DNA of 43,561 bases from Bacteroidota bacterium (GTDB taxonomy: Bacteria > Bacteroidota > Bacteroidia > Bacteroidales > UBA12481). The stretch's first letter is position 1, and each line of letters begins with the position of its first letter. This document shows, one piece after another, positions 6,908-43,561 of the stretch. The translations under genes and the position numbers were made by a program. The notes beneath the pieces are model-generated. The model did no database searches. It had not been told where the DNA came from and saw only the letters and a program-made list of their open reading frames with translations. The stretch covers positions 1 to 43,561 of the forward strand of contig JABHCC010000029.1 in assembly GCA_018669475.1 (NCBI GenBank), written 5' to 3'.

Positions 6908-7351
6908 ATGCCGAAACACATCAGAAGATTACTCCTCCTTTTTGCTGTTCTGATTACCTTGTTTATTATTGTCCGACAAGTACTGATTCCTGACTCATTC
7001 GGGCAATTCGGACACTACAGGGGATTAGCTCTGGAGGAAAACAAAGCGCATGTAGCAAGATATGTAGGCACAGATATCTGTGCTGAATGTCATTGGGAAA
7101 CGATGGAACTCAAAACTGCAGATATGCATGCTGAAATTTCATGTGAGACTTGTCACGGGCCGGGTTGGAAACATATTGAAGAACCTGAACAAGGACAACT
7201 TACAATACCCGAAGGCAGAGAGTTCTGTGGCACCTGTCATTCTCGTAACCCTGCCAGGTCTGCCAGCTTAATTGCTCAGGTTAATCTGTCAGACCATAAT
7301 ATTGAAACAAATTGTTCAGAATGTCATAATCCCCATGCGCCATGGAATTAA
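6908..7351 (+). CDS. Membrane-anchored tetraheme cytochrome c
   Basis: A 147-residue protein with an N-terminal hydrophobic anchor (residues 8-28) and four CXXCH heme c sites: C58-C61-H62, C79-C82-H83, C107-C110-H111 and C136-C139-H140. Eight His in total are available, enough for mostly bis-His ligation. It would sit on the periplasmic face of the inner membrane. It resembles the small multiheme cytochromes that carry electrons between an NrfD-type quinol module and a terminal partner. The Fe-S subunit begins inside its 3' end with a 10-base overlap, so translation is coupled. No cytochrome maturation gene is in the window. Confidence 0.88.
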   Translation: MPKHIRRLLLLFAVLITLFIIVRQVLIPDSFGQFGHYRGLALEENKAHVARYVGTDICAECHWETMELKTADMHAEISCETCHGPGWKHIEEPEQGQLTIPEGREFCGTCHSRNPARSASLIAQVNLSDHNIETNCSECHNPHAPWN

Positions 7352-8106
7352 AAAACAAGAAGAACAGAAGAGATTTTCTCAAAAATGGAGCCCTCCTCAC
7401 GGGAGGAATGCTAATTGCGAGCGGGATGAAACCATTCTCTGCCTTGGTTTATGCTACAAATCATAATGAAGACGCAGAGCACTGGTACGGCATGGCCATT
7501 GACATTGAGAAATGCATTGGCTGCGGCAATTGCGCTAAAGCTTGCAAAATAGAAAATGACGTGCCAGAAGAACCTTTCTTCTTCCGGACATGGGTCGAGC
7601 AATACACAATTCTTAATGATGGAAGTAAAATCATAACTTCTGAAAACGGAGGACTAAATGGAGCTAGCCAGGATTACACTCCAGATGAAATCTTTAAATC
7701 CTTTTTTGTTCCGAAAATGTGTAACCATTGCACAAACTCACCATGCACTCAGGTGTGCCCCGTAGGTGCAACTTTTGAAAGTCCTGAAGGTGTTGCTTTG
7801 GTCGATTCTACATATTGTATTGGCTGCAGATATTGTGTTCAGGCCTGCCCGTACGGTTGCAGATACATTCACCCAAAAACAAAAATTGCGGATAAATGCA
7901 CTCTTTGTTACCATCGCATAACTAATGGGCAAGTACCTGCTTGCCAAGAAGTTTGTCCAACGAATGCCAAAATATTTGGTGATCTGAATGACAGAAGCTC
8001 TGAATTAGTTCAATTCATAAAGAAGCATGATTGGCAAATTCTTAAGCCTCATATGAATACTAAACCAAAAGTAGTTTATAACGCTTTATCAGGGGAGGTT
8101 AACTGA
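7342..8106 (+). CDS. Tat-exported four-cluster ferredoxin subunit (NrfC/PsrB-like)
   Basis: A 254-residue protein starting with a Tat signal (NRRDFLKNG, then a hydrophobic stretch). Four Cys groups typical of NrfC/PsrB/DmsB subunits follow: CIGCGNCAKAC, CNHCTNSPCTQVC, CIGCRYCVQAC and CTLCYHRITNGQVPACQEVC, each ending in a PxxA-like turn. They should bind four [4Fe-4S] clusters and pass electrons from the NrfD quinol site to the cytochrome. The Tat signal implies the folded subunit works outside the inner membrane. It overlaps the cytochrome gene by 10 bases and ends one base before the nrfD-like gene. These subunits normally pair with a molybdopterin enzyme, which is absent here. Confidence 0.92.
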   Translation: MELKNKKNRRDFLKNGALLTGGMLIASGMKPFSALVYATNHNEDAEHWYGMAIDIEKCIGCGNCAKACKIENDVPEEPFFFRTWVEQYTILNDGSKIITSENGGLNGASQDYTPDEIFKSFFVPKMCNHCTNSPCTQVCPVGATFESPEGVALVDSTYCIGCRYCVQACPYGCRYIHPKTKIADKCTLCYHRITNGQVPACQEVCPTNAKIFGDLNDRSSELVQFIKKHDWQILKPHMNTKPKVVYNALSGEVN

Positions 8107-8107
8107 T

Positions 8108-9307
8108 ATGGAAGAACACACACAACATTTATTCGAAATGCTTTCGCAGGTAGATGGTTACATCTATCCGAATGAACTTGACCTGCAGTGGGGAATACTT
8201 ATTGTTCTATATCCCTACATAACCGGTTTAGTTGCAGGAGCCTTTATCCTGGCCTCCCTGGAGCGGGTATTCAAAGTCAAAGTTTTAAAACCAACATACC
8301 ATATTGCACTGTTAACCGCATTGTCATTCTTACTTGTTGCAACCCTGCCCCTTGTTAGTCACCTCGGAAAACCATTACGTGCAATCGAAATTATGATTAC
8401 ACCTAATGGCACATCCGCAATGGCAATATTCGGATTTATATATTTATGGTATTTGATGGTGGTTCTTCTCTTGGAGTTATGGTTTGATTATCGTCGTGAC
8501 ATGGTGATCTGGGCTCAGCAAATGAAAGGATTCAAAAGATTCGTCTATCGAATTTTCACTCTGGGTGTGAATGATCTGTCGCCAAAAGCACTCCGCTGGG
8601 ATGAGAAACTTGGCTATTTCATAACCATTATTGGTATACCATCTGCATTTCTACTTCATGGATATGTTGGTTTCATTTTCGGTTCAGTGAAAGCTAATCC
8701 ATGGTGGTCTACCGTATTGATGCCTGTAATCTTCTTGTTTTCAGCAATGGTTTCAGGAATTGCACTTGTAATGGTGGTTTATTTGATCATCAGCTATATC
8801 AGGAAAATGAAAGTAGACATGAAATGTCTTGATATGATTGGCCGCTATTTACTTATTGCCTTAATACTGGATTTTTCACTTGAATCCCTGGATCAGATTC
8901 ATAGGATTTACGAGGCAGAAGAATCCTTTGAAATAATCTCATTGCTGATGTCTGGTCAACTCACGTATACTCTATTGGTCTTCCAGGTACTCCTGGGAAC
9001 GATCATACCATTGATAGTCCTGACTATTCTTCAATTCTACAAGAAAAACATCAGGCTCAGGCAAACTCTCTATATGGTGGTTGGATTTATAGTGCTTATA
9101 GGAATCTTCTTTATGCGTTGGAATATTGTTATCGGCGGGCAGCTTTTCTCAAAGAGTTTTCACGGATTCACCTCGTTCAAGCTTCAATTGATAGGCTCAG
9201 AAGGTATTCTCATGGCAGGACTTTGGTTGATAATTCCAATATTTATCCTCGCATTTCTTCTATGGTTGTTTCCTCCATGGAAGAAGACTGAGGAAACTGC
9301 ATATTGA
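8108..9307 (+). CDS. NrfD/PsrC-family integral membrane quinol subunit
   Basis: A 399-residue polytopic protein with eight to ten predicted transmembrane helices, for example LIVLYPYITGLVAGAFILA and FIVLIGIFFMRWNIVIGG. The start of the protein matches the NrfD pattern of a first helix followed by a short loop with HLGKP (residues about 79-83), the conserved quinone-site region. The C-terminal end, WLFPPWKK, is cytoplasmic. It would oxidise menaquinol or reduce menaquinone and hand electrons to or from the ferredoxin subunit. It is the last gene of the three-gene unit. The substrate of the complex cannot be told from these genes. Confidence 0.88.
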   Translation: MEEHTQHLFEMLSQVDGYIYPNELDLQWGILIVLYPYITGLVAGAFILASLERVFKVKVLKPTYHIALLTALSFLLVATLPLVSHLGKPLRAIEIMITPNGTSAMAIFGFIYLWYLMVVLLLELWFDYRRDMVIWAQQMKGFKRFVYRIFTLGVNDLSPKALRWDEKLGYFITIIGIPSAFLLHGYVGFIFGSVKANPWWSTVLMPVIFLFSAMVSGIALVMVVYLIISYIRKMKVDMKCLDMIGRYLLIALILDFSLESLDQIHRIYEAEESFEIISLLMSGQLTYTLLVFQVLLGTIIPLIVLTILQFYKKNIRLRQTLYMVVGFIVLIGIFFMRWNIVIGGQLFSKSFHGFTSFKLQLIGSEGILMAGLWLIIPIFILAFLLWLFPPWKKTEETAY

Positions 9308-12056: not shown

Positions 12057-13016
12057 ATGACGACTTCACATAATTTAGAACGCTTCCATCAAATTGATTT
12101 CAATAAGATCATCGATCATCCGAATATCCTGATTGCAGCTAATTTTTGGGATACCGACCGATTCCAGGCAGCCAGGATCTGTTATAAATTCATGCGAGCC
12201 ATTGATGACATGATAGATAATTACAAAGCAGAAAATAAGGAAATATCCGTATCTGAAAGAAAGTGGTTTGAAAACCAGGTTAAGGAATGGCTGCAAGCTG
12301 TAAAAACAGGTAATCATGATGACGATCCGCTAAAAAAAGATCTCATCACTACTATTGACACCTTCAGAATTCCTCATTGGACGCTTGAGGACTTTGCCAA
12401 AGCTATGCTATACGACATTGATCATGATGGTTTTGAGACTATTGACACCTTTATTAACTATTCTCAAGGTGCCTCTGTTGCACCATCTTCAATTTTCGTT
12501 CACCTCTGTGGTATTAGTAGGTCCAACGGCACATATAATGATCCTGTTTTCGATGTCAGAGAAGCCGCCAAACCATGTGCGCTATTTAGTTATCTGGTAC
12601 ATATTATTCGCGACTTTCAAAAAGATCAGTTCGATAATCTGAGCTATTTTGCTGATAGTACGATTATCAAATATGGTTTGACGCGAGAATTACTGAGCGA
12701 TTTTGCACATGGTACACCGATCCCACAAGCTTTTAGAGACATGATAAGAGAGTACGTAGCCCTGGCTGAAAAATACCGTATTCAAACACTTGAAGTAATC
12801 GACAAAATCAGCCCTTTTCTCGAAGCAAAGTATCAACTTAGTTTGAACATTATTTACAATTTGTATGACATGGTTTATAAGCGCATCGATGTGGATCATG
12901 GGCAATTTACCTCGAAAGAGCTCAATCCTGATGCAGAAGAGGTGAAAGAAAGGGTATTACAAACAATATTGGATTTTGAAAATGCTCAAAAAAACAATAT
13001 CTCTATCCCAATATGA
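12057..13016 (+). CDS. crtB: Phytoene/squalene synthase family protein (CrtB-like)
   Basis: A 319-residue prenyl synthase. The first Asp-rich motif is D50-DMID54 in FMRAIDDMIDNYK, and the second is R185-DFQKD190 in VHIIRDFQKDQFD; both bind diphosphate through Mg. The reaction is head-to-head condensation of two C20 (or C15) diphosphates. ATG 12057 avoids the 20-base overlap of the alternative ATG at 12024 with crtI; either start is possible. It is paired with the desaturase in the usual order for a carotenoid operon, which is why phytoene synthase is favoured over squalene synthase. Confidence 0.85.
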   Translation: MTTSHNLERFHQIDFNKIIDHPNILIAANFWDTDRFQAARICYKFMRAIDDMIDNYKAENKEISVSERKWFENQVKEWLQAVKTGNHDDDPLKKDLITTIDTFRIPHWTLEDFAKAMLYDIDHDGFETIDTFINYSQGASVAPSSIFVHLCGISRSNGTYNDPVFDVREAAKPCALFSYLVHIIRDFQKDQFDNLSYFADSTIIKYGLTRELLSDFAHGTPIPQAFRDMIREYVALAEKYRIQTLEVIDKISPFLEAKYQLSLNIIYNLYDMVYKRIDVDHGQFTSKELNPDAEEVKERVLQTILDFENAQKNNISIPI

Positions 13017-13034
13017 TAATAAGACTATCCCGGC

Positions 13035-14153
13035 TTAATTATTTATCACGATTTTTTGGATTCGGACACTACTGGAGCTTCTGGCTTCAACAATGTATAT
13101 GCCCGGACTCATACTCCTGAGTTGAAGAGCTGTAAACTGTTTACCTGCATCTTTCTTCCAGCTTCTTTGGTATACAATCTGGGACTGTAGATTTCTCACG
13201 ATAAGATTTAAATCCTCATTATGAGATGTTTCAAGAACCAGGTTAAAGAAACCATTACCTGGATTAGGATAAACCTTAAACACCTCGTCATTCCGAAAAC
13301 TATCAGATGAGCTTGACAAAAGTGGAACGCTAGCTGCATTAAGCACTTCTGAATCATGAGCCCCCCCGTACCTGAGCACATAAGCAACCAGGTGAATATC
13401 TTCGGGTTTATAGCCTGGATCAAGACTTGTTGTAAAAGTGTGAAAATACTGTTGACCGGCAGCAACAGTATCAGGAATACCAATATCCCCTCCGGGATTA
13501 TAGCCATACGGACCAGCAAGCATTTCTCTCAGAACATTGTTATGAACATATCCTACTATTGGGTTACCCAGACCCTGCAATTCAGGGAAATCAGGATCCG
13601 TATTAAGGTAATTAACCTGGTCATATTCATCGTCGCCTGTTATATTATCCTCCAAAACATAAACATTATACCTGAAGTCTCCTGTATCAGCACTTGTAAA
13701 TTCTATCCTGACAGTAACAGCAAGTTTATTGCTTGACTCCTGATAATACTTTTCCAGACTCACTACGGCAGTTGGAACCTGCCTGGAACGAATAGCAATT
13801 CTCTCTGCCCATAAATCATCTCCCATCTGAATGTAAAAATCATCCTCAAACTTATTACGGTCAATTGTTGCACTTGGATACCACACATAAAGATCTTCAA
13901 CCAGTTCATCACCATACTCAGTACGCATTGGTTCACGTCTGGAGCCCCCGTGAATTCCCACAGGAATAATATTGGGATATTCCTCCAATAAAGCCTTCAA
14001 TTCTAAGTTGCCACGCGGACACCAACCACACCATGTTCCTGTGAATTCCTCAAATAGAATGTATCTTTTATTGCTTTGTCCGAACACATCAGACAGGCTG
14101 ACAAAACTGATACAAATGACTATCAAAATGACTCTGTAAATTCTTCTCACCAT
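13035..14153 (-). CDS. Omp28-related secreted protein with thioredoxin-like motif and T9SS sorting domain
   Basis: A 372-residue exported protein: signal peptide to about residue 25 (FVSLSDVFGQ), then an Omp28-like thioredoxin-fold domain with the redox motif C42-GWC45 in FTGTWCGWCPRG. The C-terminal 80 residues (VYPNPGNGFFNLVLE through SPGIYIVEA) form a type A T9SS sorting domain, so it is sent to the cell surface or released. The CxxC motif suggests disulfide or thiol chemistry outside the cell. It lies 24 bases downstream of the triple-rhodanese gene, probably in one transcript. Convergent with crtB (18-base gap). Confidence 0.85.
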   Translation of the reverse strand: MVRRIYRVILIVICISFVSLSDVFGQSNKRYILFEEFTGTWCGWCPRGNLELKALLEEYPNIIPVGIHGGSRREPMRTEYGDELVEDLYVWYPSATIDRNKFEDDFYIQMGDDLWAERIAIRSRQVPTAVVSLEKYYQESSNKLAVTVRIEFTSADTGDFRYNVYVLEDNITGDDEYDQVNYLNTDPDFPELQGLGNPIVGYVHNNVLREMLAGPYGYNPGGDIGIPDTVAAGQQYFHTFTTSLDPGYKPEDIHLVAYVLRYGGAHDSEVLNAASVPLLSSSSDSFRNDEVFKVYPNPGNGFFNLVLETSHNEDLNLIVRNLQSQIVYQRSWKKDAGKQFTALQLRSMSPGIYIVEARSSSSVRIQKIVINN

Positions 14154-14177
14154 AATTTTATTCTACTTACCACCGCA

Positions 14178-15464
14178 TTAATCGGGCTCTCCTGTTTCAA
14201 CCTGATTCTCAGGATCATTACTCCACTCAAACCAACCACCATCGAAAACTGAGACCCTGGGCCATCCAATCAACCATGCATTAAAGAAAGCCTCACTTCC
14301 CCGCCAACCTGTCCCACAATAAAATGCATTATGATTGCCAGGCAATATATTTACTTCCTCCCATTGTTTCAAAATATCGTGATACTCAAGAGTAGTATGA
14401 TCCAGATTTCTGTAATTCTCCATATGGTATGCATCTGACCCACAATTACCAAATACAGCACCAGGAATTCGTCCGGTTTTTTCGATGTAATTATACCCGC
14501 TTACCTTCCCGATATATTCATCCCAACTTCTCACACAAACTAGATCAGCAGTATCTGATACTAACATCTCTTTAGCTTGTGGCAAATCCACAGCCAACTC
14601 AGGACATTGTGGTATTACTACACCAAACTCATTAATTGGTTCAGGAAGTTTGCCATATTCAGTAATCTTAAAGCCATCGTCAGTCCATGATTGTAATCCT
14701 CCGTTAAGTACCTTCACATCCTTCACACCGGCATACATCATGATAAAAGCACAGCGTATCGCTCCCAAATGTCCGGCACTGCTTCCCGGGAAAGGATCAT
14801 TATTATCAGGAAATGAAAACCGGCCATAGACAACTACCGTTGTTTCAGAACAAATCCCATGCTTCTCAAGTGCATTTTTTAATTCCTCCGGTGATCGTCT
14901 GTTCCAGGTCTCCGAAGATTCAAGCTGCAGAGTATCCAAAGCAATAGCGCCAGAAATATGACCCTTGTCATAGTCGTTCGGATTTCTATAGTGACAATGA
15001 CATAATACCAGATTCTTTCCTTCCATGTGCTGAGGCTTGTCACCCGACAGAGCCATATTCAGCCATTTTGGGCTCACTAAATGTTTATATCTACTTAAGA
15101 TCTCAATTGGCATGTCCTTGTTATTCAACCATTCTCCTGCAAATTCATAATATCTAAAAACTCTGGGATAAGCGGTTTTGATAAATAGCTGAGCCACATT
15201 TTCAATATCCTCTCTATCATCACCATAAATAACAATCTCCTGCTCAGGAAGTATTTCCTTTTTCATGAGGATTTCAATCCAATCGATATACTGACTCCAT
15301 TTAACTGGCAGACTCCTGGCCCCGGGAATATGACCGCCCCTCAAATCTTCATCTTGCATCCAGCCGTTATAGGCATCTATAGCACGTACATCAATAATTT
15401 GGCAATTTGGTTTTATAAGGCTGTCTAGTACAAATTCAGTACTTACAGTAGGGATGTCAGACAT
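14178..15464 (-). CDS. Triple-rhodanese sulfurtransferase (YnjE/EanB type)
   Basis: A 428-residue protein of three rhodanese folds (about 1-118, 130-265, 290-420). Only the last keeps the catalytic loop: C383 in FYCGTGWRGS. In the first and second domains the loop positions read YGDDRED and YGRFSFP without Cys. The architecture and position match E. coli YnjE (active Cys385 as I recall) and Chlorobium EanB, the anaerobic ergothioneine synthase (Cys412 as I recall). SGYNYIEKTGRIPGA upstream also matches this family. There is no signal peptide, so it should act in the cytoplasm, unlike E. coli YnjE and like EanB. It should carry a persulfide for transfer to an acceptor. egtB/egtD are 15 kb away, so a role in ergothioneine is possible but unproved. 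Confidence 0.88.
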   Translation of the reverse strand: MSDIPTVSTEFVLDSLIKPNCQIIDVRAIDAYNGWMQDEDLRGGHIPGARSLPVKWSQYIDWIEILMKKEILPEQEIVIYGDDREDIENVAQLFIKTAYPRVFRYYEFAGEWLNNKDMPIEILSRYKHLVSPKWLNMALSGDKPQHMEGKNLVLCHCHYRNPNDYDKGHISGAIALDTLQLESSETWNRRSPEELKNALEKHGICSETTVVVYGRFSFPDNNDPFPGSSAGHLGAIRCAFIMMYAGVKDVKVLNGGLQSWTDDGFKITEYGKLPEPINEFGVVIPQCPELAVDLPQAKEMLVSDTADLVCVRSWDEYIGKVSGYNYIEKTGRIPGAVFGNCGSDAYHMENYRNLDHTTLEYHDILKQWEEVNILPGNHNAFYCGTGWRGSEAFFNAWLIGWPRVSVFDGGWFEWSNDPENQVETGEPD

Positions 15465-15603
15465 AAAGCAATATTGTTGCGAGTTATTAATTACTGTTAG
15501 TTAATTGGATGAAAAAACAAAAATATACCATCAGATTCTCGAGCATTATGGAAAACTTATTACAAAAAACTCAACAATATTGGGAATCAATACACCCATC
15601 AAT

Positions 15604-15636
15604 AGCTCCGTGTTCGCACACGGACAGCTTTTTTTT
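15604..15636 (+). terminator. Hairpin plus T8 tract upstream of sulfatase (attenuator-like)
   Basis: CCGTGT (15608-15613) and ACACGG (15618-15623) form a perfect 6-bp stem with a TCGC loop; flanking AGCT (15604-15607 and 15626-15629) can add a second stem across a 2-base bulge. Eight T follow (15629-15636). This is the shape of a plus-strand intrinsic terminator, yet no plus-strand gene lies upstream; the neighbour is divergent. It precedes the sulfatase ATG by 29 bases. Confidence 0.5.
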
Positions 15637-15664
15637 GTATCTTAGTTTCCTAATCATTTTTATA

Positions 15665-17056
15665 ATGAAACGACTAATTCCCCTGCTTACGCTTACACTT
15701 CTTTATGCTTGTGCAAGCAATACCCCTCCCAATATAATCGTGATTCTGGCAGACGATGCAGGATATGCTGATTTTGGCTTCATGGGCAGTATGGATTTGG
15801 AAACTCCTAACCTGGATTCCCTCGCATCAGATGGCATAGTTTTTTCGGATGCTCACGTAAGTGCAACAGTATGTGCACCATCACGGGCCGGATTAATCAC
15901 AGGACGATATCAGCAAAGTTTCGGTTTTGAATGCAATATTCCACCTTTTGGTGAAGGAATTGATCCGGATCTGCCTACTATTGGCAATCTGTTGCAATCA
16001 GCAGGATATAAAACTATTGCTATTGGCAAATGGCACCTTGGCGAATCAGATGAGTACCATCCAAATAACAGAGGTTTTGATGAGTTCTTTGGATTTCTGG
16101 GCGGATCAAGAAGCTACTTTTTAAATGAAAAAGAAGATCGCCCAAATCACCCGCATGCCATATTGAAGAACCATGAACAAGTTAATTTTGAATCTTACCT
16201 CACGGATGTTTTTGGTGATGTAGCAGTCAATTACATAGAGCAATACAAAAATCAACAATTCTTTATCTACCTGTCATTTAACGCAGTACATACACCCATG
16301 CAGGCAAGAAAGGATCATCTGGATAAGTACAAGGATCACTTTCGTCAAAAGCTGGCTGCAATGACCTGGTCTATGGATGAAAACGTGGGAAAAGTGATTC
16401 GCAAACTCAAGGAAGAGGGACTATACGAAAATACCCTTACATTTTTTCTTAGTGATAATGGAGGAGCCACCAATAACCAGTCCAGCGTTTATCCTTTGAA
16501 AGGATGGAAGGGGAATAAATATGAAGGTGGACACAGGATTCCATTCACCTGTACATGGCCAAAAGGATTCAAATCAGCTCCTAAATTCAATGGATTGACA
16601 TCCGCATTCGATATTTTTGCCACTTGTCTTGAAGTTGCGAAAGTTGAGAATATTGAAGACTTTCCTACTGATGGAATAAGCCTAATGCCCTTCCTTAAAG
16701 GAAAGAAAACTACAGATCCACATGAGAGTCTTTTTTGGAGGAAAGATGAAATGGCAGGGATGCGTTTGGAAGGCTACAAACTAATAAGGCTTGATGGATA
16801 TGGATATCGTTTATATGACCTGAGAAAGGATATAGGAGAAATGGAAGATTTATCAGCAACAGAAGATTCTGTATTAAATCTGATGACAGAACAACTCGAA
16901 GCCTGGGAATCCGGAATGCAGGATCCTGACTGGATCGAATCAGAAGGATGGAGAGCAGTAACTTATGAAATTCACCAGGCGCTAATGGAAAACAGATTAC
17001 CCAAGTATATGAGTCCCGGAGAAATGAGGAAATATTTTGACAACATACAAAACTAA
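15665..17056 (+). CDS. Lipoprotein sulfatase, formylglycine type (family S1)
   Basis: A 463-residue sulfatase with a lipoprotein signal (LTLLYAC, Cys16) and the formylglycine site C80-APSR84 in CAPSRAGLITGRY. Other signatures are ILADDAGYADFGF for metal ligands, GKWHLGE, and FFLSDNGGATNN. It hydrolyses sulfate esters of a carbohydrate, likely at the cell envelope, and needs a maturation enzyme (anSME) not in this window. The start at 15665 is chosen because it begins the signal peptide; an in-frame ATG at 15509 would extend the protein through the hairpin region and bury the signal. The next gene begins 4 bases after the stop. Confidence 0.92.
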   Translation: MKRLIPLLTLTLLYACASNTPPNIIVILADDAGYADFGFMGSMDLETPNLDSLASDGIVFSDAHVSATVCAPSRAGLITGRYQQSFGFECNIPPFGEGIDPDLPTIGNLLQSAGYKTIAIGKWHLGESDEYHPNNRGFDEFFGFLGGSRSYFLNEKEDRPNHPHAILKNHEQVNFESYLTDVFGDVAVNYIEQYKNQQFFIYLSFNAVHTPMQARKDHLDKYKDHFRQKLAAMTWSMDENVGKVIRKLKEEGLYENTLTFFLSDNGGATNNQSSVYPLKGWKGNKYEGGHRIPFTCTWPKGFKSAPKFNGLTSAFDIFATCLEVAKVENIEDFPTDGISLMPFLKGKKTTDPHESLFWRKDEMAGMRLEGYKLIRLDGYGYRLYDLRKDIGEMEDLSATEDSVLNLMTEQLEAWESGMQDPDWIESEGWRAVTYEIHQALMENRLPKYMSPGEMRKYFDNIQN

Positions 17057-20986: not shown

Positions 20987-22861
20987 TTACAAATCAACAT
21001 CCAACCGACGTAAGTCTGACTCGCTAACTTCTCCGATTGCAGAGTATCTTCTTAATAGATAATATTCCTCTAATAGTTTGTCTAATGGAACTACAGTATT
21101 TTTACCTTGGAACTTGGTTTCCTTTTCGTTTAAAAATCTGCCAGGCAATTCATCAAGCATACCTGCCGGATTCATCCTGAAATCCATCCACCTTTCAAGC
21201 TTGTTAATTCTCTCACCGGCCCGAAGAATTCCTTTTTGACTCATCTTTATTCCCGTAAGACCAGTATACAATTGACTCAAACCAGCCCAATTCATTAAGA
21301 GCTGACTAAGACGAGGAAAGAAAGCAACGACCGGACGTAATAAAACAGGAGGAATATACTTTGGAACCGGGTACTCAGCTAATATTCCATATCCGGTAAA
21401 CTGACAAATTTGCAAAGAATTCATAGCAGCGAACAAATCTTCATAAAAAATAGCCCATTCAGCCTTGCCTTTTAGGGATAAAGGCTTCATATATGGAAAC
21501 AAAATCTCCATCCCCACCAGATATGAACCAAGATGACAACCTCCCCGGTTAGCAACTGCATATGATAATCCCTGCCCCCAGGCAGCTCTGGGATCATAGG
21601 CAGCTACCTCTAAGCCTTTCACCTGTATAGCAAAGTCACTGCCACCATACTTTTCACTCAACCATCGTGAGCCCATCGCCAATTCCCTGCCCTCCCCTCT
21701 CAAATAAGCTATATCATTGATAATCTGGCTAATATTATCAAATTTCCCAAACTCTAATTCCGACTTTCTGATACCTTTCTCAGCAGCCTCCATTGCCCAT
21801 GCCAGAGTCCCCCCAACAGAAATTGTATCCATCCCCAGGCTATTCATCAAATCATTCCACTCAATAATCAGATCTGTATCATAATTTTCAATATTACTCC
21901 CGAACATTCCATTGGTCTCATATTCTGGAATTTGATGCAGCTTTCCATCTTTATAATGCCCTTTATGTCCACAATTTATTGAACAATGCCGGCATGATGA
22001 AGACCTGGTCGTATAACGCTCAGCCATGGCTTCTCCAGATGTTTGCTCAACTGCCGGATGATAACGATCACGGAAATTTCTTACCGGTGAGTATCCTGAT
22101 TTAATACCAAAACGTACACCTGCATTAGTGCCATATAATCTATAGCTTTTCAGAAACTCACTTCTGTGAATATACTTCTTCAACTTCTTAGTTGCCTTCT
22201 TAAAACCTGCCGGATGAACGGGCTCCATTTTATGAGAAAAGCCCCGGGCAACAATAGCTTTCACTTTCTTCGAACCCATAACTGCACCTAATCCTCCTCT
22301 TCCGGCAAAGCGATGACCAGACTTAATACTAGCCATTAAAACACCTGCCTCTCCTGCCGGTCCAATAACTGCAGAAGCCTCCCTGGCACTCATTGACAAG
22401 GCCTTATCAAGCTCCTCAGTATTCATCCCCCATAATTCACCAGCCTCAACAAATTCCACAGAATCATGATTAAACTTTAATACAACAGGATCGGGAGACT
22501 TCCCTGTCAGTATTACTCCGTCCCAACCAGCAGTTTTACATGCTTCACCAAAAGGTCCTCCACAGGATGAGCCAAATAACAAGCCCGTAAGAGGAGACTT
22601 TGCATAAACCTCAAAACGAGCAGAACAAGGTGCTCCAGTTGATAAAATAGTACCCATGGCAAAAATCAGAATATTCTCCTCACCCAGTGGGTCAATATCC
22701 GACAGGCCTTCTTTCAAATGATCGTAATAAATCTTCAGGGCAAGTCCTTTCCCTCCCAAATATTTTTCCCTATCCTTATCAGATATCTGGTAAACCGACC
22801 AACTATGATCATTCAGGTTTATTTTCAGATACTTATTGTTAGTTCCATTAACTTTCTTCAT
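20987..22861 (-). CDS. aor: Tungsten-containing aldehyde ferredoxin oxidoreductase
   Basis: A 624-residue member of the AOR family, which oxidises aldehydes (or reduces acids) using a tungsto-bis-pterin cofactor and one [4Fe-4S] cluster. Cluster ligands are C290-RHC293-SINC297 and probably C486 in SLQICQF, the same arrangement as in Pyrococcus AOR. Active-site region motifs include IPEYETNG (Glu313), YDPRAAWGQGLSYAVANRGG and CH452LGS. The N-terminal part with GTILSTGAPCSARFEVYAKS is typical. It overlaps the ferredoxin gene by four bases (ATGA), so the two are co-translated. The substrate is unknown. Cofactor synthesis genes are not present here. Confidence 0.92.
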   Translation of the reverse strand: MKKVNGTNNKYLKINLNDHSWSVYQISDKDREKYLGGKGLALKIYYDHLKEGLSDIDPLGEENILIFAMGTILSTGAPCSARFEVYAKSPLTGLLFGSSCGGPFGEACKTAGWDGVILTGKSPDPVVLKFNHDSVEFVEAGELWGMNTEELDKALSMSAREASAVIGPAGEAGVLMASIKSGHRFAGRGGLGAVMGSKKVKAIVARGFSHKMEPVHPAGFKKATKKLKKYIHRSEFLKSYRLYGTNAGVRFGIKSGYSPVRNFRDRYHPAVEQTSGEAMAERYTTRSSSCRHCSINCGHKGHYKDGKLHQIPEYETNGMFGSNIENYDTDLIIEWNDLMNSLGMDTISVGGTLAWAMEAAEKGIRKSELEFGKFDNISQIINDIAYLRGEGRELAMGSRWLSEKYGGSDFAIQVKGLEVAAYDPRAAWGQGLSYAVANRGGCHLGSYLVGMEILFPYMKPLSLKGKAEWAIFYEDLFAAMNSLQICQFTGYGILAEYPVPKYIPPVLLRPVVAFFPRLSQLLMNWAGLSQLYTGLTGIKMSQKGILRAGERINKLERWMDFRMNPAGMLDELPGRFLNEKETKFQGKNTVVPLDKLLEEYYLLRRYSAIGEVSESDLRRLDVDL

Positions 22862-23274
22862 AACTGTACCTCCATCCTGATAGCATCATATTGGCAATTA
22901 TCCAAACACCAGTTGCAACTAATACAATCTTTCGCGGAAGATAAAACAGCATAATTTTCTGTTAGTGGCAGATCCTCCGAAAACATTGTCAATGAAGGAG
23001 TCGGACAAACCTCAACGCAACTTTCACAGGCCACACATTTTTCTCTCACAATTGTCGGACGCAACCATGCAGATTTCTTGAGCCTTTGAATAAGCATACC
23101 ATCCTCAGTTTGAATTGCCAATGCCGGACAAACACGTCCACAAGCCTCACAATCAATACATAGTTCAGCATCGATCACATGTAATTCATCGCGATTACCT
23201 GTGATTGCATCCACGGGGCACACCTTAACACAAGCTGTACAACCCGTACATAAATCAGTAATGAAGCAGCTCAT
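22858..23274 (-). CDS. Polyferredoxin with four [4Fe-4S] motifs, AOR partner
   Basis: A 138-residue soluble protein with four CxxCxxCxxxC motifs: C9-TGCTACVKVC19, C39-IDCEACGRVC49, C80-VACESCVEVC90 and C117-ISCNWCLDNC127. This should hold four clusters, forming an electron wire. Gene order and size match AorA of the aromatic-acid-degrading bacteria, where AorA stacks with the tungsten subunit AorB. No AorC (FAD/NADH subunit) follows, so electrons probably go to ferredoxin or another partner. Translation of the AOR starts at its stop codon. Confidence 0.9.
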   Translation of the reverse strand: MSCFITDLCTGCTACVKVCPVDAITGNRDELHVIDAELCIDCEACGRVCPALAIQTEDGMLIQRLKKSAWLRPTIVREKCVACESCVEVCPTPSLTMFSEDLPLTENYAVLSSAKDCISCNWCLDNCQYDAIRMEVQL

Positions 23275-30252: not shown

Positions 30253-30304
30253 ACTTAAGCCTTACGCCCTAAGCCCTAAGCCCTATTTTCTAAGCCCTAT
30301 TTTC
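30253..30304. repeat. CCCTAAG-type repeat forming the 3' end of egtD
   Basis: ACTTAAGCC (30253-30261) precedes heptamers of the type CCCTAAG, then TAAGCCCTATTTTC occurs twice in tandem (30277-30290 and 30291-30304). The second copy codes the last residues of EgtD (reverse strand), and its stop codon TAG lies in the first copy. The DNA is telomere-like only by chance composition. Confidence 0.8.
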
Positions 30305-31245
30305 TTGAATAGAGAATCTGAGAAATAGATTTTTCTGTCAGTAAAATGTCTGGGCTGGTCGAAACCTGTCATATTAGCAAAATGAGCAATATCGTCGAAA
30401 TCATATTTCCTTGACATCTCAACATAAACAGATTCTCCCTGAGTAAATTGAAATTCCTGATCAATTTCTTTAAACCGTACAAGCTGATCACAGTTGCTGA
30501 TAATATAACTTTTCGCACTACCCTCTATCGGATCATAATTCTCATAATGATCAAATTTCTCATCATTGAAGTCAGCACCCAGTTCGCGATTCATTCTTTG
30601 CAATAAATTAAGATTAAATCTTTTGGTTACCTTTTGGCTATCATTATATGCAGCCAAAATAACCCTTGGATCCTTTTTCAGGTCAAAGCCCACTAACAGA
30701 GCATCCTGAATGTGGCATCTTGATGACAGTTCCTTAAGAAAAAGAATACTTCCAGCATCTGAATAATTTCCAATATTTGATCCAAGAAAGAGGATCAGTT
30801 TTGGCATCTCATCCTCACTGTTTTCCAATTGATCCAATGCCTGATAGTAGTCGGCACAAACGGCATCTATCTCCAATTCTGGAAACTCATCTTTCATATT
30901 TTCCCGAACAACTCTGATAGCTTCAGCTGATATATCAATGGGTGTATAAACTGGTTCAATTCCCAATTTATAACACGCCTCTATCAATAATTTAGTTTTA
31001 ATTCCGTCTCCCGCTCCGAGGTCTATAATTCTTATTCTGGGGGCACCGTTTACGAAAGCTCTGATAATATCCAGGCCCTGATGCTCAAAAATCTCATTCT
31101 CGCATTGGCTCAGGTAATACTCCGGCAGGTTCATAATCTCTTGAAAGATACGTGAGCCTTCTTCGTCATAAAAATACTTTGATGGCAGACTCTTTGGCAG
31201 GCCTGACAGCCCTTTAATCACATCTGATTTAAAATTCTCTGTCAC
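30283..31245 (-). CDS. egtD: L-histidine N-alpha-methyltransferase EgtD
   Basis: A 320-residue SAM-dependent methyltransferase that trimethylates the alpha-amine of histidine to hercynine. It has the family start (LPKSLPSKYFYDEEGSRIF, then LPEYYLSQCENEIFE), the SAM loop IIDLGAGDGIKTKLLIEAC, and the later FLGSNIGNYS and LLVGFDLKKDP motifs. Length fits EgtD. It lies 10 bases downstream of egtB in the same operon. The last residues, KIGLRK, are coded inside a tandem DNA repeat. Cysteine ligase EgtA, amidase EgtC and lyase EgtE are not in the window. Confidence 0.93.
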   Translation of the reverse strand: MTENFKSDVIKGLSGLPKSLPSKYFYDEEGSRIFQEIMNLPEYYLSQCENEIFEHQGLDIIRAFVNGAPRIRIIDLGAGDGIKTKLLIEACYKLGIEPVYTPIDISAEAIRVVRENMKDEFPELEIDAVCADYYQALDQLENSEDEMPKLILFLGSNIGNYSDAGSILFLKELSSRCHIQDALLVGFDLKKDPRVILAAYNDSQKVTKRFNLNLLQRMNRELGADFNDEKFDHYENYDPIEGSAKSYIISNCDQLVRFKEIDQEFQFTQGESVYVEMSRKYDFDDIAHFANMTGFDQPRHFTDRKIYFSDSLFKKIGLRK

Positions 31246-31255
31246 AATAAAATTA

Positions 31256-32398
31256 TTATTTAGCTAAACGTATACCAGTATATTGCCAGCGTTCATGAGG
31301 ATGGAAGAAATTACGATAGCTCGACCTGCTGTGTCCTGCAGGTGTAGCAACCGATCCCCCGCGTAAAACCTTTTGGTTAACCATAAACTTCCCATTGTAC
31401 TCACCCACTGCCCCTTCACTTTTTCTGTATCCGGGATAAGGAGCATAAGCACTCTCGGTCCATTCCCATCTGGATCCCCAGTCAAACAGATGCTGGGATG
31501 CTTCCCATTCAAACTCAGTAGGTAAACGAAGTCCTTTCCATTGCGAAAATGCACAGGCCTCAAAGAAACTTATATGACAAAGGGCCTCATTCACACGAAC
31601 CATTTGCAATCCTGACATTGTGTATCTGTAGAAATCCCCATCTCTATCGAGCCAGTAAAGAGGCTTATCAATTCCCTTTTCATTTATCCATTGCCATGCT
31701 TCACTATGCCAGATATCATGACGTTTATACGCTCCGTCGCGAATAAAGTCAATATACTCACCATTTGTCACGAGTCGATCAGCAATTTCAAAACCTTCAA
31801 TATATACCTTATGGGCTTTTAACTCATTATCAAAGCAGAAGTCCTTACCCTGATATCCAATTGTATGAAGGCCTTCATCGACAGACAAAAAGTTCAATTC
31901 GCCCCCCAGCTCTTCACCCTCTGAAAAAGTCTCGGAATAGATTGGGTACAAAGGATTATGTCCAAGAATATATTTTATATCAGTAAGCAGCAATTCCTGA
32001 TGTTGCTGTTCATGATTCAATCCCAAACGAATTAAGTCTTTAATCCCCTGAGGAATCTCTCCTGCCATATATTTTATCATTGAATCGTCAACATACTTGC
32101 GGTAAGTATAAACTTCTTCAACTGTTGGCCGACTCATATCCCCCCTGCTGTGGCGCACCACCCGGTCTCCCGCATAATTATAATAACTATTAAAAAAATA
32201 ACTGTATAGTGGATTATATTCCTTATGAGTTTTACAATTAGGAATCAGAATAAAATACTCAAAAAACCAGCTCGTATGAGCCAATTGCCATTTCGGAGGG
32301 CTTACCAGTTCAATTGGTTGAGGTACATAATCCTCTGTTTTAAGAGGCCTGCAAATTGCTTCAGAATGCGACCGTATGGCACGGTAAGTATCAATCAT
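31256..32398 (-). CDS. egtB: Ergothioneine sulfoxide synthase EgtB
   Basis: A 380-residue non-heme iron enzyme with an N-terminal DinB-like domain and C-terminal formylglycine-enzyme (FGE-sulfatase) fold. The three-His iron site is visible: H41 in LAHTSWFFEYF, then H129 and H133 in LNHEQQHQELL. Later motifs are LRLPTEFEWE, WEWTESAYAPYPGY and GRSSYRNF-like SRSSYRNFFHP. It joins sulfur from cysteine or gamma-glutamyl-cysteine to hercynine using O2. It is somewhat shorter than mycobacterial EgtB (about 430). Which thiol donor it uses cannot be decided by eye. Divergent from the BNR gene at 32577. Confidence 0.92.
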   Translation of the reverse strand: MIDTYRAIRSHSEAICRPLKTEDYVPQPIELVSPPKWQLAHTSWFFEYFILIPNCKTHKEYNPLYSYFFNSYYNYAGDRVVRHSRGDMSRPTVEEVYTYRKYVDDSMIKYMAGEIPQGIKDLIRLGLNHEQQHQELLLTDIKYILGHNPLYPIYSETFSEGEELGGELNFLSVDEGLHTIGYQGKDFCFDNELKAHKVYIEGFEIADRLVTNGEYIDFIRDGAYKRHDIWHSEAWQWINEKGIDKPLYWLDRDGDFYRYTMSGLQMVRVNEALCHISFFEACAFSQWKGLRLPTEFEWEASQHLFDWGSRWEWTESAYAPYPGYRKSEGAVGEYNGKFMVNQKVLRGGSVATPAGHSRSSYRNFFHPHERWQYTGIRLAK

Positions 32399-42284: not shown

Positions 42285-43561
42285 TTAATTATTCTCTTTA
42301 GCCTTCCTGATTTTCTCAAGAACCTCTTCCTGAACAGCTTTTGGCAGAGGCATATACTGATGGAATTCCATTGAATAGTTTGCCCTTCCGCTTGAAAGGT
42401 TCCTCAATGTTGTTGAATAACCAAACATTTCAGACAAGGGTACAAAGCCTGAAAGTTTTTGGGATCCCTTTCTGTACCGTCGCATCGATTCGATCTTTCC
42501 ACGACGACGGTTTAGATTTCCTACTATGTCACCTATGTGGTCATCAGGTGTGTTAACCTCTATTTTCATAACTGGTTCAAGTAAAATCGGACCAGCTTTT
42601 AAAAAACCTTTCTTGAAGCAAATTGATCCACAGATCTGGAAAGCCATATCCGATGAGTCAACAGCATGAAATTTTCCATCTAGTAATGTTACCCTGACAT
42701 TTTCAATCGGGAAACCCGCAATAATTCCCTTAGCTAGTGTTTTTTTAATCCCCTTATTTACTGAGGGAATAAAATCTGCAGGTATAGCCCCACCCCTAAT
42801 TTTATCAATAAACTCATAACCACCATCTTCCTTTGGTTCAATACGCATCAGAGTTTGAGCAAATTGACCTTTACCACCCGATTGCTTGGAATGACGATAT
42901 TCAATCTCAATTTCAGATGTTATGGCTTCGCGATAAGCAACTGATGGTTCGCCAATTTCAACAGGCACCTTGAACTCCTCTTTCAGGCGATCAACAAGTA
43001 TCTCGAGGTGAAGCTCACCCATTCCTGCCATTATTGTTTCATTGGTCTCATCATCATAACGTGCTATGAAAGAAGGATCTTCGCTGGAAAGTTTTGCAAG
43101 TGCTTCTCCCATTTTGCCCTGCTCCTTCTTCGATGCAGCATTTACTTTCAGCTCAATTACAGTAGGAGGAATTGTAATTGACTCAAGAAACAATGGATTT
43201 GCAGGATCACACAAAGTATCTCCGGTTTTGGTTATTTTCATACCAATTAAGGCAACAATATCACCCGGACCTGCTGATCTCACTTCCTCGCGGTCTTTAG
43301 CATGAATCCTTAATATCCTACCGATCCGCTCTTGCTTGCCTTTTGTTGTATTTCGAATGGCCATGCCGCTCTCAAGCTTTCCTGAATAAATTCGGATAAA
43401 GGTTTGCTGACCTACATAAGGATCATGTATTAGTTTAAAAGCTAAAGCAGAAAATGGAGCTTTTTCAGATGGGCAACGACTGTGTGTCTTTTCCTCATCA
43501 TCAATATCCATTCCAATTGTGACACCTACATCAAGAGGAGAAGGAAGAAAATCAATAACTG
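42285..43561 (-). CDS. Elongation factor G, C-terminal part, cut by the right edge
   Basis: The C-terminal about 60% of an EF-G; the frame runs open to the window edge, so the first Met seen (43511) is internal. Upstream residues at the edge (VIDFLPSPLDVGVTIGMD) are the end of the G' domain. Then come domain II (FKLIHDPYVGQQTFIRIYSG), domain III (SSEDPSFIARYDDETNETIM, GMGELHLEILVDRLK), domain IV (YRHSKQSGGKGQFAQTLM, VDSSDMAFQICGS) and domain V (MKIEVNTPDDHIGDIVGNLN, FGYSTTLRNLSSGRANYSMEF). It drives ribosomal translocation. It is not next to rpsL, rpsG or tuf, so it may be the second EF-G paralogue common in Bacteroidota. Convergent with the carboxypeptidase gene. Confidence 0.92.
   Translation of the reverse strand, partial: VIDFLPSPLDVGVTIGMDIDDEEKTHSRCPSEKAPFSALAFKLIHDPYVGQQTFIRIYSGKLESGMAIRNTTKGKQERIGRILRIHAKDREEVRSAGPGDIVALIGMKITKTGDTLCDPANPLFLESITIPPTVIELKVNAASKKEQGKMGEALAKLSSEDPSFIARYDDETNETIMAGMGELHLEILVDRLKEEFKVPVEIGEPSVAYREAITSEIEIEYRHSKQSGGKGQFAQTLMRIEPKEDGGYEFIDKIRGGAIPADFIPSVNKGIKKTLAKGIIAGFPIENVRVTLLDGKFHAVDSSDMAFQICGSICFKKGFLKAGPILLEPVMKIEVNTPDDHIGDIVGNLNRRRGKIESMRRYRKGSQKLSGFVPLSEMFGYSTTLRNLSSGRANYSMEFHQYMPLPKAVQEEVLEKIRKAKENN

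Follow-up and report, generated by a model that had tools for sequence, protein, structure and literature searches.

Genes for EanB and for the oxygen-dependent EgtB-EgtD pair, two predicted routes to ergothioneine, on one contig of a Bacteroidota bacterium

A 43,561-nucleotide stretch of DNA from a Bacteroidota bacterium, here referred to as the window, carries genes for both arms of ergothioneine synthesis: an EanB-type ergothioneine synthase and, 14.8 kb away, the oxygen-dependent sulfoxide synthase EgtB with the histidine methyltransferase EgtD. This is a dual pathway at the gene level, with both arms' genes on one contig and one methyltransferase found in the genome. We consider it likely that the protein is a true EanB and that it and EgtB are two arms acting on a single hercynine pool fed by EgtD. 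The first of the two arms is encoded as follows.

14178..15464, minus strand: eanB, triple-rhodanese ergothioneine synthase of 428 amino acids (Pfam, structure match, alignment, tree, and model)
14316..14318, minus strand: codon of the catalytic Cys383 (EanB Cys412), the persulfide carrier (sequence and alignment; role from passages of PMC10903977 and PMC9103826)
14493..14495, minus strand: codon of Tyr324 (EanB Tyr353), the imidazole proton donor/acceptor (alignment; role from passages of the same two papers)

Family assignment of the triple-rhodanese protein

The eanB product contains three Rhodanese stretches by Pfam, and its sole loop cysteine is C383 in the third domain (YCGTGWR). The equivalent loop positions of domains 1 and 2, inspected by eye, are YGDD and YGRF, without cysteine, which bears out the original prediction of three rhodanese domains with a single live loop. 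EanB Cys412, Thr414, and Arg417 align with C383, T385, and R388 of the window protein, and Y324, which is 59 residues ahead of C383, aligns with EanB Tyr353. The N terminus (MSDIPTVSTEFV...) has no YnjE-like hydrophobic stretch: its best 11-residue Kyte-Doolittle mean is 1.27 versus 2.22 for YnjE, a heuristic comparison rather than a signal-peptide prediction, and one that agrees with the earlier claim that this protein, unlike Escherichia coli YnjE, lacks a signal peptide. The G+C contents of eanB (0.413), egtB (0.413), and egtD (0.379) are ordinary for the window (0.40).

The spacing between Y324 and C383 had been offered as a sign of EanB. The distance of 59 residues is correct, but it is not diagnostic, since equivalents of Tyr353, Cys412, and Arg417 are present in all 6 outgroup (YnjE-like) sequences and that of Thr414 in 4 of the 6. 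E. coli YnjE carries all four, as the original prediction had itself cautioned. We therefore rejected the spacing as proof of EanB, and the assignment rests on other evidence. The same observation counts in favor of a rival reading, in which the protein is a YnjE-type or general thiosulfate/persulfide sulfurtransferase (serving, for example, molybdopterin sulfur) that has an EanB-like loop and no activity on hercynine, since the active-site core is not exclusive to EanB.

Sequence comparisons separate the two families. The solved structures closest in sequence are those of Chlorobium limicola EanB (best match, 564 bits, E value of 1.7e-168), a match far beyond chance, followed by YnjE at 269 bits and two-domain rhodaneses at 58 bits or less. 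The window protein is 57.7% identical to C. limicola EanB and 37.4% identical to E. coli YnjE. It matches 14 of 14 EanB-specific columns, including Y346 (EanB 375) and G389 (EanB 418), where such a column is defined as being at least 97% conserved in 106 EanB-like rows, the window protein among them, and found in 0 of 6 outgroup rows. At five sites with conservation of at least 95% among EanBs it has a different residue, and none of these sites belongs to the Tyr/Cys/Thr/Arg catalytic set.

The tree gives the same division. From 133 sequences, 112 rows remained after identical cores were merged (L159 and L162 were dropped as too short), and a quick search without bootstrap, with six outgroup sequences, some of them on long branches, placed the window protein and C. 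limicola EanB together in the 106-row group (99*; branch length, 1.71), across the branch from the whole outgroup. The alignment and tree that had been proposed as a check thus put the protein inside the EanB group and away from YnjE, and neither of the outcomes named beforehand as counting against EanB, grouping with YnjE or lack of EanB-specific residues, was what we found. The window branch is long (0.8 versus a median of 0.28); since the branches of the window's EgtD (0.93) and EgtB (0.89) are equally long in their own trees, sparse sampling is the likelier cause.

An AlphaFold2 model of the eanB product, built with 28 sequences, has a pLDDT of 92.2 and a pTM of 0.92. It superimposes on EanB crystal chains with Z scores of 57.1 to 58.0 at 1.1 to 1.3 Å over 423 to 427 residues and on YnjE with Z scores of 47.6 to 48.5 at 2.2 to 2.3 Å, and the Foldseek results are concordant.

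The resemblance to C. limicola EanB (Clim_1149; PDB 6ktv and 6h98) therefore extends from the three rhodanese domains and the one live third-domain cysteine to the catalytic Tyr/Cys/Thr/Arg equivalents, the EanB-specific columns, and the fold; the difference lies in the 57.7% identity. E. coli YnjE (PDB 2wlr and 3ipo) is also a triple rhodanese with one live loop and the same four residues. It differs in its lower identity, in its position on the other side of the 99* branch, in its N-terminal hydrophobic, signal-like stretch, and in having none of the 14 EanB-specific residues, for which absence from the outgroup was part of the selection. One published case blurs this boundary to the benefit of the sulfurtransferase reading: passages of PMC11767532 describe an Anaerobacillus sulfurtransferase, 38.4% identical to EanB and so about as distant as YnjE, that yields ergothioneine in Bacillus licheniformis together with a Bacteroidales methyltransferase. 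By that result, a protein of low identity to EanB may still have ergothioneine-forming activity.

Methyltransferase partners and the eanB neighborhood

Co-occurrence with a histidine methyltransferase also bears on the assignment. Among 395 genomes of the window's phylum, EanB (E value of ≤1e-30) is found in 18, EgtB (over its curated cut-off) in 113, and a PF10017 methyltransferase in 128. These 128 genomes divide exactly into 110 with EgtB only, 15 with EanB only, and 3 with both (the window's genome, G000, plus G196 and G225); none of the 395 has the methyltransferase alone, and none has EanB or EgtB without it. Every hit to the EanB query exceeds 500 bits, with none between 1e-30 and 1e-152, so this threshold brought up no YnjE-like protein in these genomes. 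With G000 left out, the counts for EanB versus methyltransferase are 17/0/110/267 (Fisher p of 2e-9), a value that is overstated because genomes of the same genus are not independent (EanB occurs in 7 of 171 genera). The EanB genomes show no enrichment for EgtB (2/17 versus 110/377; p of 0.17). According to the available portion of PMC9516567, most members of the methyltransferase family co-occur with EgtB-like or EanB-like enzymes, and the exact partition seen here sharpens that statement for one phylum. In a separate set, PF10017 is present in 55 of the 58 eanB genome handles searched (53 of 56 distinct genomes). The three misses (G064, G066, and G073; 3 of 56 distinct genomes) may reflect incomplete assemblies or another source of hercynine.

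In C. limicola, eanB adjoins the methyltransferase gene eanA, and no EgtB is named there in the passages of PMC9103826 and PMC7278568 that describe it. In the window, by comparison, eanB stands alone, with the nearest methyltransferase gene, that beside egtB, 14.8 kb off, and this solitary position is a further point for a general sulfurtransferase. Adjacency is common: 53 of 80 eanB loci have a methyltransferase gene on the same strand no more than 1.6 kb away, 47 of them with the methyltransferase downstream, at a median gap of 144 nt. However, 11 of the 80 loci lack a methyltransferase despite flanks of at least 2.5 kb to either side (16 more are cut short), and we therefore do not require adjacency to eanA of an EanB. 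At the other extreme, EanB and the methyltransferase share a single open frame in L009 (749 residues), L041 (744 residues), and L087 (at least 671 residues), the first of which has the sequence found in G001, a genome of the window's own genus. Each such joint frame is a possible two-step ergothioneine enzyme.

The direct neighbors of the window's eanB are genes for an Omp28-type protein and a sulfatase, and we know of no link between either of them and ergothioneine. The first of these is the following.

13035-14153, minus strand: Omp28-type protein with a T9SS sorting tail, starting 24 nt after eanB

A shared operon of eanB and this gene was considered and rejected, as no Omp28 homologue was detected in 80 other eanB loci (tblastn, E value of 1e-8; some flanks are short). 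Rfam gave nothing above gathering scores, and positions 12900-15700 contain 11 promoter-like sites versus 8.4 in shuffled sequences and 4 terminator-like sites versus 1.8, which is nothing usable. In another genome, G260, eanB has a partial PF10017 match some 70 nt away (C23:95143-95559; 156 bits over positions 163-303), and the full methyltransferase is on a different contig; the fragment could be what is left of an eanA that was replaced.

Based on the tree, the identity values, the group-specific columns, the model, and the co-occurrence data, we conclude with high confidence that the protein is EanB and not YnjE, as the original prediction had proposed. A YnjE-type or general sulfurtransferase is highly improbable in light of the same comparisons, the presence of a histidine methyltransferase in 18 of 18 EanB genomes versus 110 of 377 others, and the existence of EanB-methyltransferase joint open frames.

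The egtB-egtD pair and genomes with both routes

The second arm is encoded by two adjacent genes.

31256..32398, minus strand: egtB, O2-dependent sulfoxide synthase of 380 amino acids (NCBIfam, 499.9 bits; nearest structures those of the Chloracidobacterium enzyme, CthEgtB; motifs LAHTSWFFE and NHEQQHQE)
30283..31245, minus strand: egtD, encoding a histidine N-alpha-methyltransferase (sole PF10017 member found in the genome), with its start 10 nt beyond egtB

The prediction that EgtD is encoded about 15 kb from eanB, together with EgtB, holds on all counts: the distance is 14.8 kb on one contig, the gap between egtB and egtD is 10 nt, and NCBIfam recognizes both products. EgtB scores 499.9 bits against an equivalog cut-off of 360, and EgtD is barely over its own (291.2 versus 290.9), with 318 bits for PF10017. 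The EgtB motifs LAHTSWFFE (at residue 39) and NHEQQHQE (at residue 128) are His rich and presumably hold the iron ligands. In a 70-row tree, the window's EgtB groups with the shorter EgtBs (25 rows, 98*).

EgtB has a relative, SenA, so its product might be something other than ergothioneine, such as selenoneine, in which case EgtB and EanB would not be alternative routes to one product. The SenA family model does score 325 bits here, and no member of EgtE was found above its cut-off in the window's genome. However, 325 bits is below the SenA cut-off of 420, whereas the EgtB score is well above its own; among solved structures, the protein is closest to EgtB entries of the CthEgtB kind (391 bits, versus 106 bits for SenA); and egtD follows directly. 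In addition, passages of PMC7278568 treat EgtB and EgtD as the key enzymes of the route and the others as replaceable. We regard a product other than ergothioneine as very unlikely. The window's EgtB is thus best read as an ergothioneine enzyme like the oxygen-dependent EgtB-EgtD route of the CthEgtB kind (PDB 6qki and 6o6l), which it resembles in the 391-bit match and in the adjacency of egtB and egtD, and from which the window differs in that the only methyltransferase found is shared with an EanB.

The window's genome (5.56 Mb, 95.4% complete) has one EanB, one EgtB over the cut-off, and one PF10017 methyltransferase found. At the gene level, the suggestion of both routes in a single genome is therefore right, on one 43.6-kb contig with a single methyltransferase found. 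Such dual genomes are a minority but not unique. An EgtB over the cut-off is present in 11 of 74 distinct eanB genomes, or 12 if the 338-bit EgtB fragment of G085, cut by a contig end, is included; the 11 are G000, 7 of 50 other eanB genomes, and G025, G196, and G225. The 74 genomes, whose distinctness was judged by EanB sequence, consist of these 50 (50 of the 80 eanB loci, L002-L051, were used for the EgtB and PF10017 searches), G000, G023, G024, G025, G027, G042, and G050, and 17 more.

With G085 counted, exactly one methyltransferase was found in 11 of the 12 dual genomes and none in G073. The sole methyltransferase gene lies by egtB in seven (G000, G025, G062, G085, G091, G196, and G225) and by eanB in four (G069, G072, G078, and G093), and in either position EgtB and EanB would both depend on its product. 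Binning error is excluded as the cause of the dual state in G000, in G196 (eanB and egtB about 25 kb apart on a 162.8-kb contig), and in G093 (about 336 kb apart on a 1.45-Mb contig), each of which carries eanB and egtB together on a single contig. G085 and the other eight full cases have the two genes on separate contigs, and binning error could account for the dual state in those genomes.

The METHYLTRANSFERASE history suggests how such genomes may have arisen. In a tree of 141 methyltransferases (quick search; rows of fewer than 220 residues dropped), a single clade of eanB-linked members is rejected (AU test p of 4.6e-78). One group holds 36 of them, and the methyltransferases of the three genomes whose EanBs most resemble that of C. 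limicola are in it. Another 20 form a subclade (98*) inside an otherwise mostly egtB-linked group (58 rows, 98*), which also includes the window's EgtD. The L051 methyltransferase pairs with an egtB-linked one (99*), and those of eight genomes with distant EanBs, which are not adjacent to eanB, nest in an egtB-linked clade in two places. From this scatter, eanB has probably changed its methyltransferase partner more than once, and partner changes suggest passage through dual genomes. An earlier idea, that all egtB-linked members of the window's methyltransferase clade come from dual genomes, failed after methyltransferases of genomes with short-type EgtBs were added; the first methyltransferase tree had left out L070 and L182 as short.

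These data also bear on the reading that both genes are real and only one arm is used, in a genome passing between the aerobic and the anaerobic route, with one of the two genes (eanB or egtB) newly acquired or left over. Dual genomes are only 11 of 74, and the polyphyly of the eanB-linked methyltransferases, in suggesting passage through dual genomes, also fits a transitional state. On the other hand, eanB and egtB are both unbroken in the window. The EgtBs of G069, G072, G078, and G093, which are distant from the only methyltransferase of their genomes, form one clade (99*) in the 70-row tree, and those of G025 and G062 form another (100*). Synteny around egtB is common to G072 and G093 and to G025 and G062. 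The EgtB clades and the shared synteny indicate that the dual state persists in some lineages and can last long spans, and we consider it unlikely that a single arm is used.

We return to the reading of two working arms. It is an evenly balanced proposition that hercynine is a deliberate branch point, with one EgtD supplying two unrelated C-S-forming enzymes and ergothioneine made through EgtB when O2 is present and through EanB when it is absent, and that dual genomes both last and have let eanB acquire EgtD-type enzymes from the aerobic operon time and again. The EanB family itself is already known. In the partly covered literature on EanB and ergothioneine, we found no report of EgtB and EanB with a single methyltransferase in one genome, and priority is not established.

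A shared hercynine pool and the place of oxygen

For the window organism, membership in the EanB family (by sequence and model), intact catalytic residues, a single methyltransferase found, and both arms on one contig are established, and the chemistry of each arm would be that published for relatives. In the available portions of PMC10903977 and PMC9103826, Cys412 of EanB carries the persulfide, with polysulfide as the direct donor; Tyr353 adds a proton to the imidazole and removes one from it, aided by Arg417 and Thr414; and a carbene intermediate is one proposal. By analogy, sulfane sulfur from a polysulfide or persulfide donor would be loaded onto Cys383 of the third domain, Tyr324 would protonate and deprotonate the ring with assistance from Arg388 and Thr385, and EanB would place the Cys383 sulfur on the imidazole C2 of hercynine to give ergothioneine in one step, without O2. 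The hercynine would come from the only EgtD found, which is encoded beside egtB. With O2 present, EgtB would couple cysteine, the preferred sulfur donor of CthEgtB according to the same portion of PMC10903977, to the same hercynine, and a putative C-S lyase would complete the product. One hercynine pool would then supply two sulfur-inserting arms, the O2-dependent EgtB and the polysulfide-using EanB. We infer that the organism uses both arms and that the choice is set by O2 or by the supply of sulfur; judging from the genes, function of both arms in vivo is likely. An O2-independent sulfuration of hercynine is also described, in passages of PMC9516567, for MES, the metallopterin-dependent ergothioneine synthase of Caldithrix abyssi, a protein unrelated to EanB.

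The genome has a hit of 489 bits to the COX1 (heme-copper oxidase) family, which suggests an O2-reducing capacity and likely use of O2 at times. No class III ribonucleotide reductase was found in it at the threshold used, so strictly anaerobic growth of the organism is not established. More broadly, a COX1-family protein is present in 63 of 73 distinct eanB genomes (55 of 73 with an E value of ≤1e-100; G067 equals G001 and G080 equals G018, each counted once), and a class III ribonucleotide reductase is present in 6 of the 73. At 1e-30, the dual genome G091 gave no match to the COX1 family. Judging from the 73 genomes, EanB seems to extend beyond strict anaerobes. The COX1 count sits badly with the statement, in the available portion of PMC9516567, that most EanB homologues are in anaerobes, although our sample is mostly of one phylum and COX1 hits are no proof of aerobic life. 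The COX1 family includes NO reductases. Moreover, COX1 scores of about 1e-102 are also seen in three genomes with EanBs sharing 69 to 92% identity with the C. limicola protein. Passages of PMC11993508 describe C. limicola as a strict anaerobe, and COX1 is therefore a weak sign of aerobic life.

Other features of the window touch on respiration and anaerobic metabolism. Positions 6908-9307 (plus strand) encode in a row a four-CXXCH cytochrome c, a TtrB/DsrO-like Fe-S protein, and an NrfD-type membrane protein, with no molybdenum subunit seen beside them. Positions 20987-23274 (minus strand) encode an aldehyde ferredoxin oxidoreductase and a polyferredoxin, a pair known from anaerobic metabolism, in a genome that also has COX1-family oxidases. 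At 42285-43511 (minus strand) is an EF-G that lacks the GTPase domain, for which the end of the contig at 43561 is the most likely cause.

As judged from its gene content, the bacterium could probably make ergothioneine with or without air. The role of ergothioneine in cells living without oxygen is described as an open question in passages of PMC9103826 and PMC9516567. A dual-route bacterium with a shared precursor enzyme is a natural test bed for comparing aerobic and anaerobic ergothioneine in the same cell.
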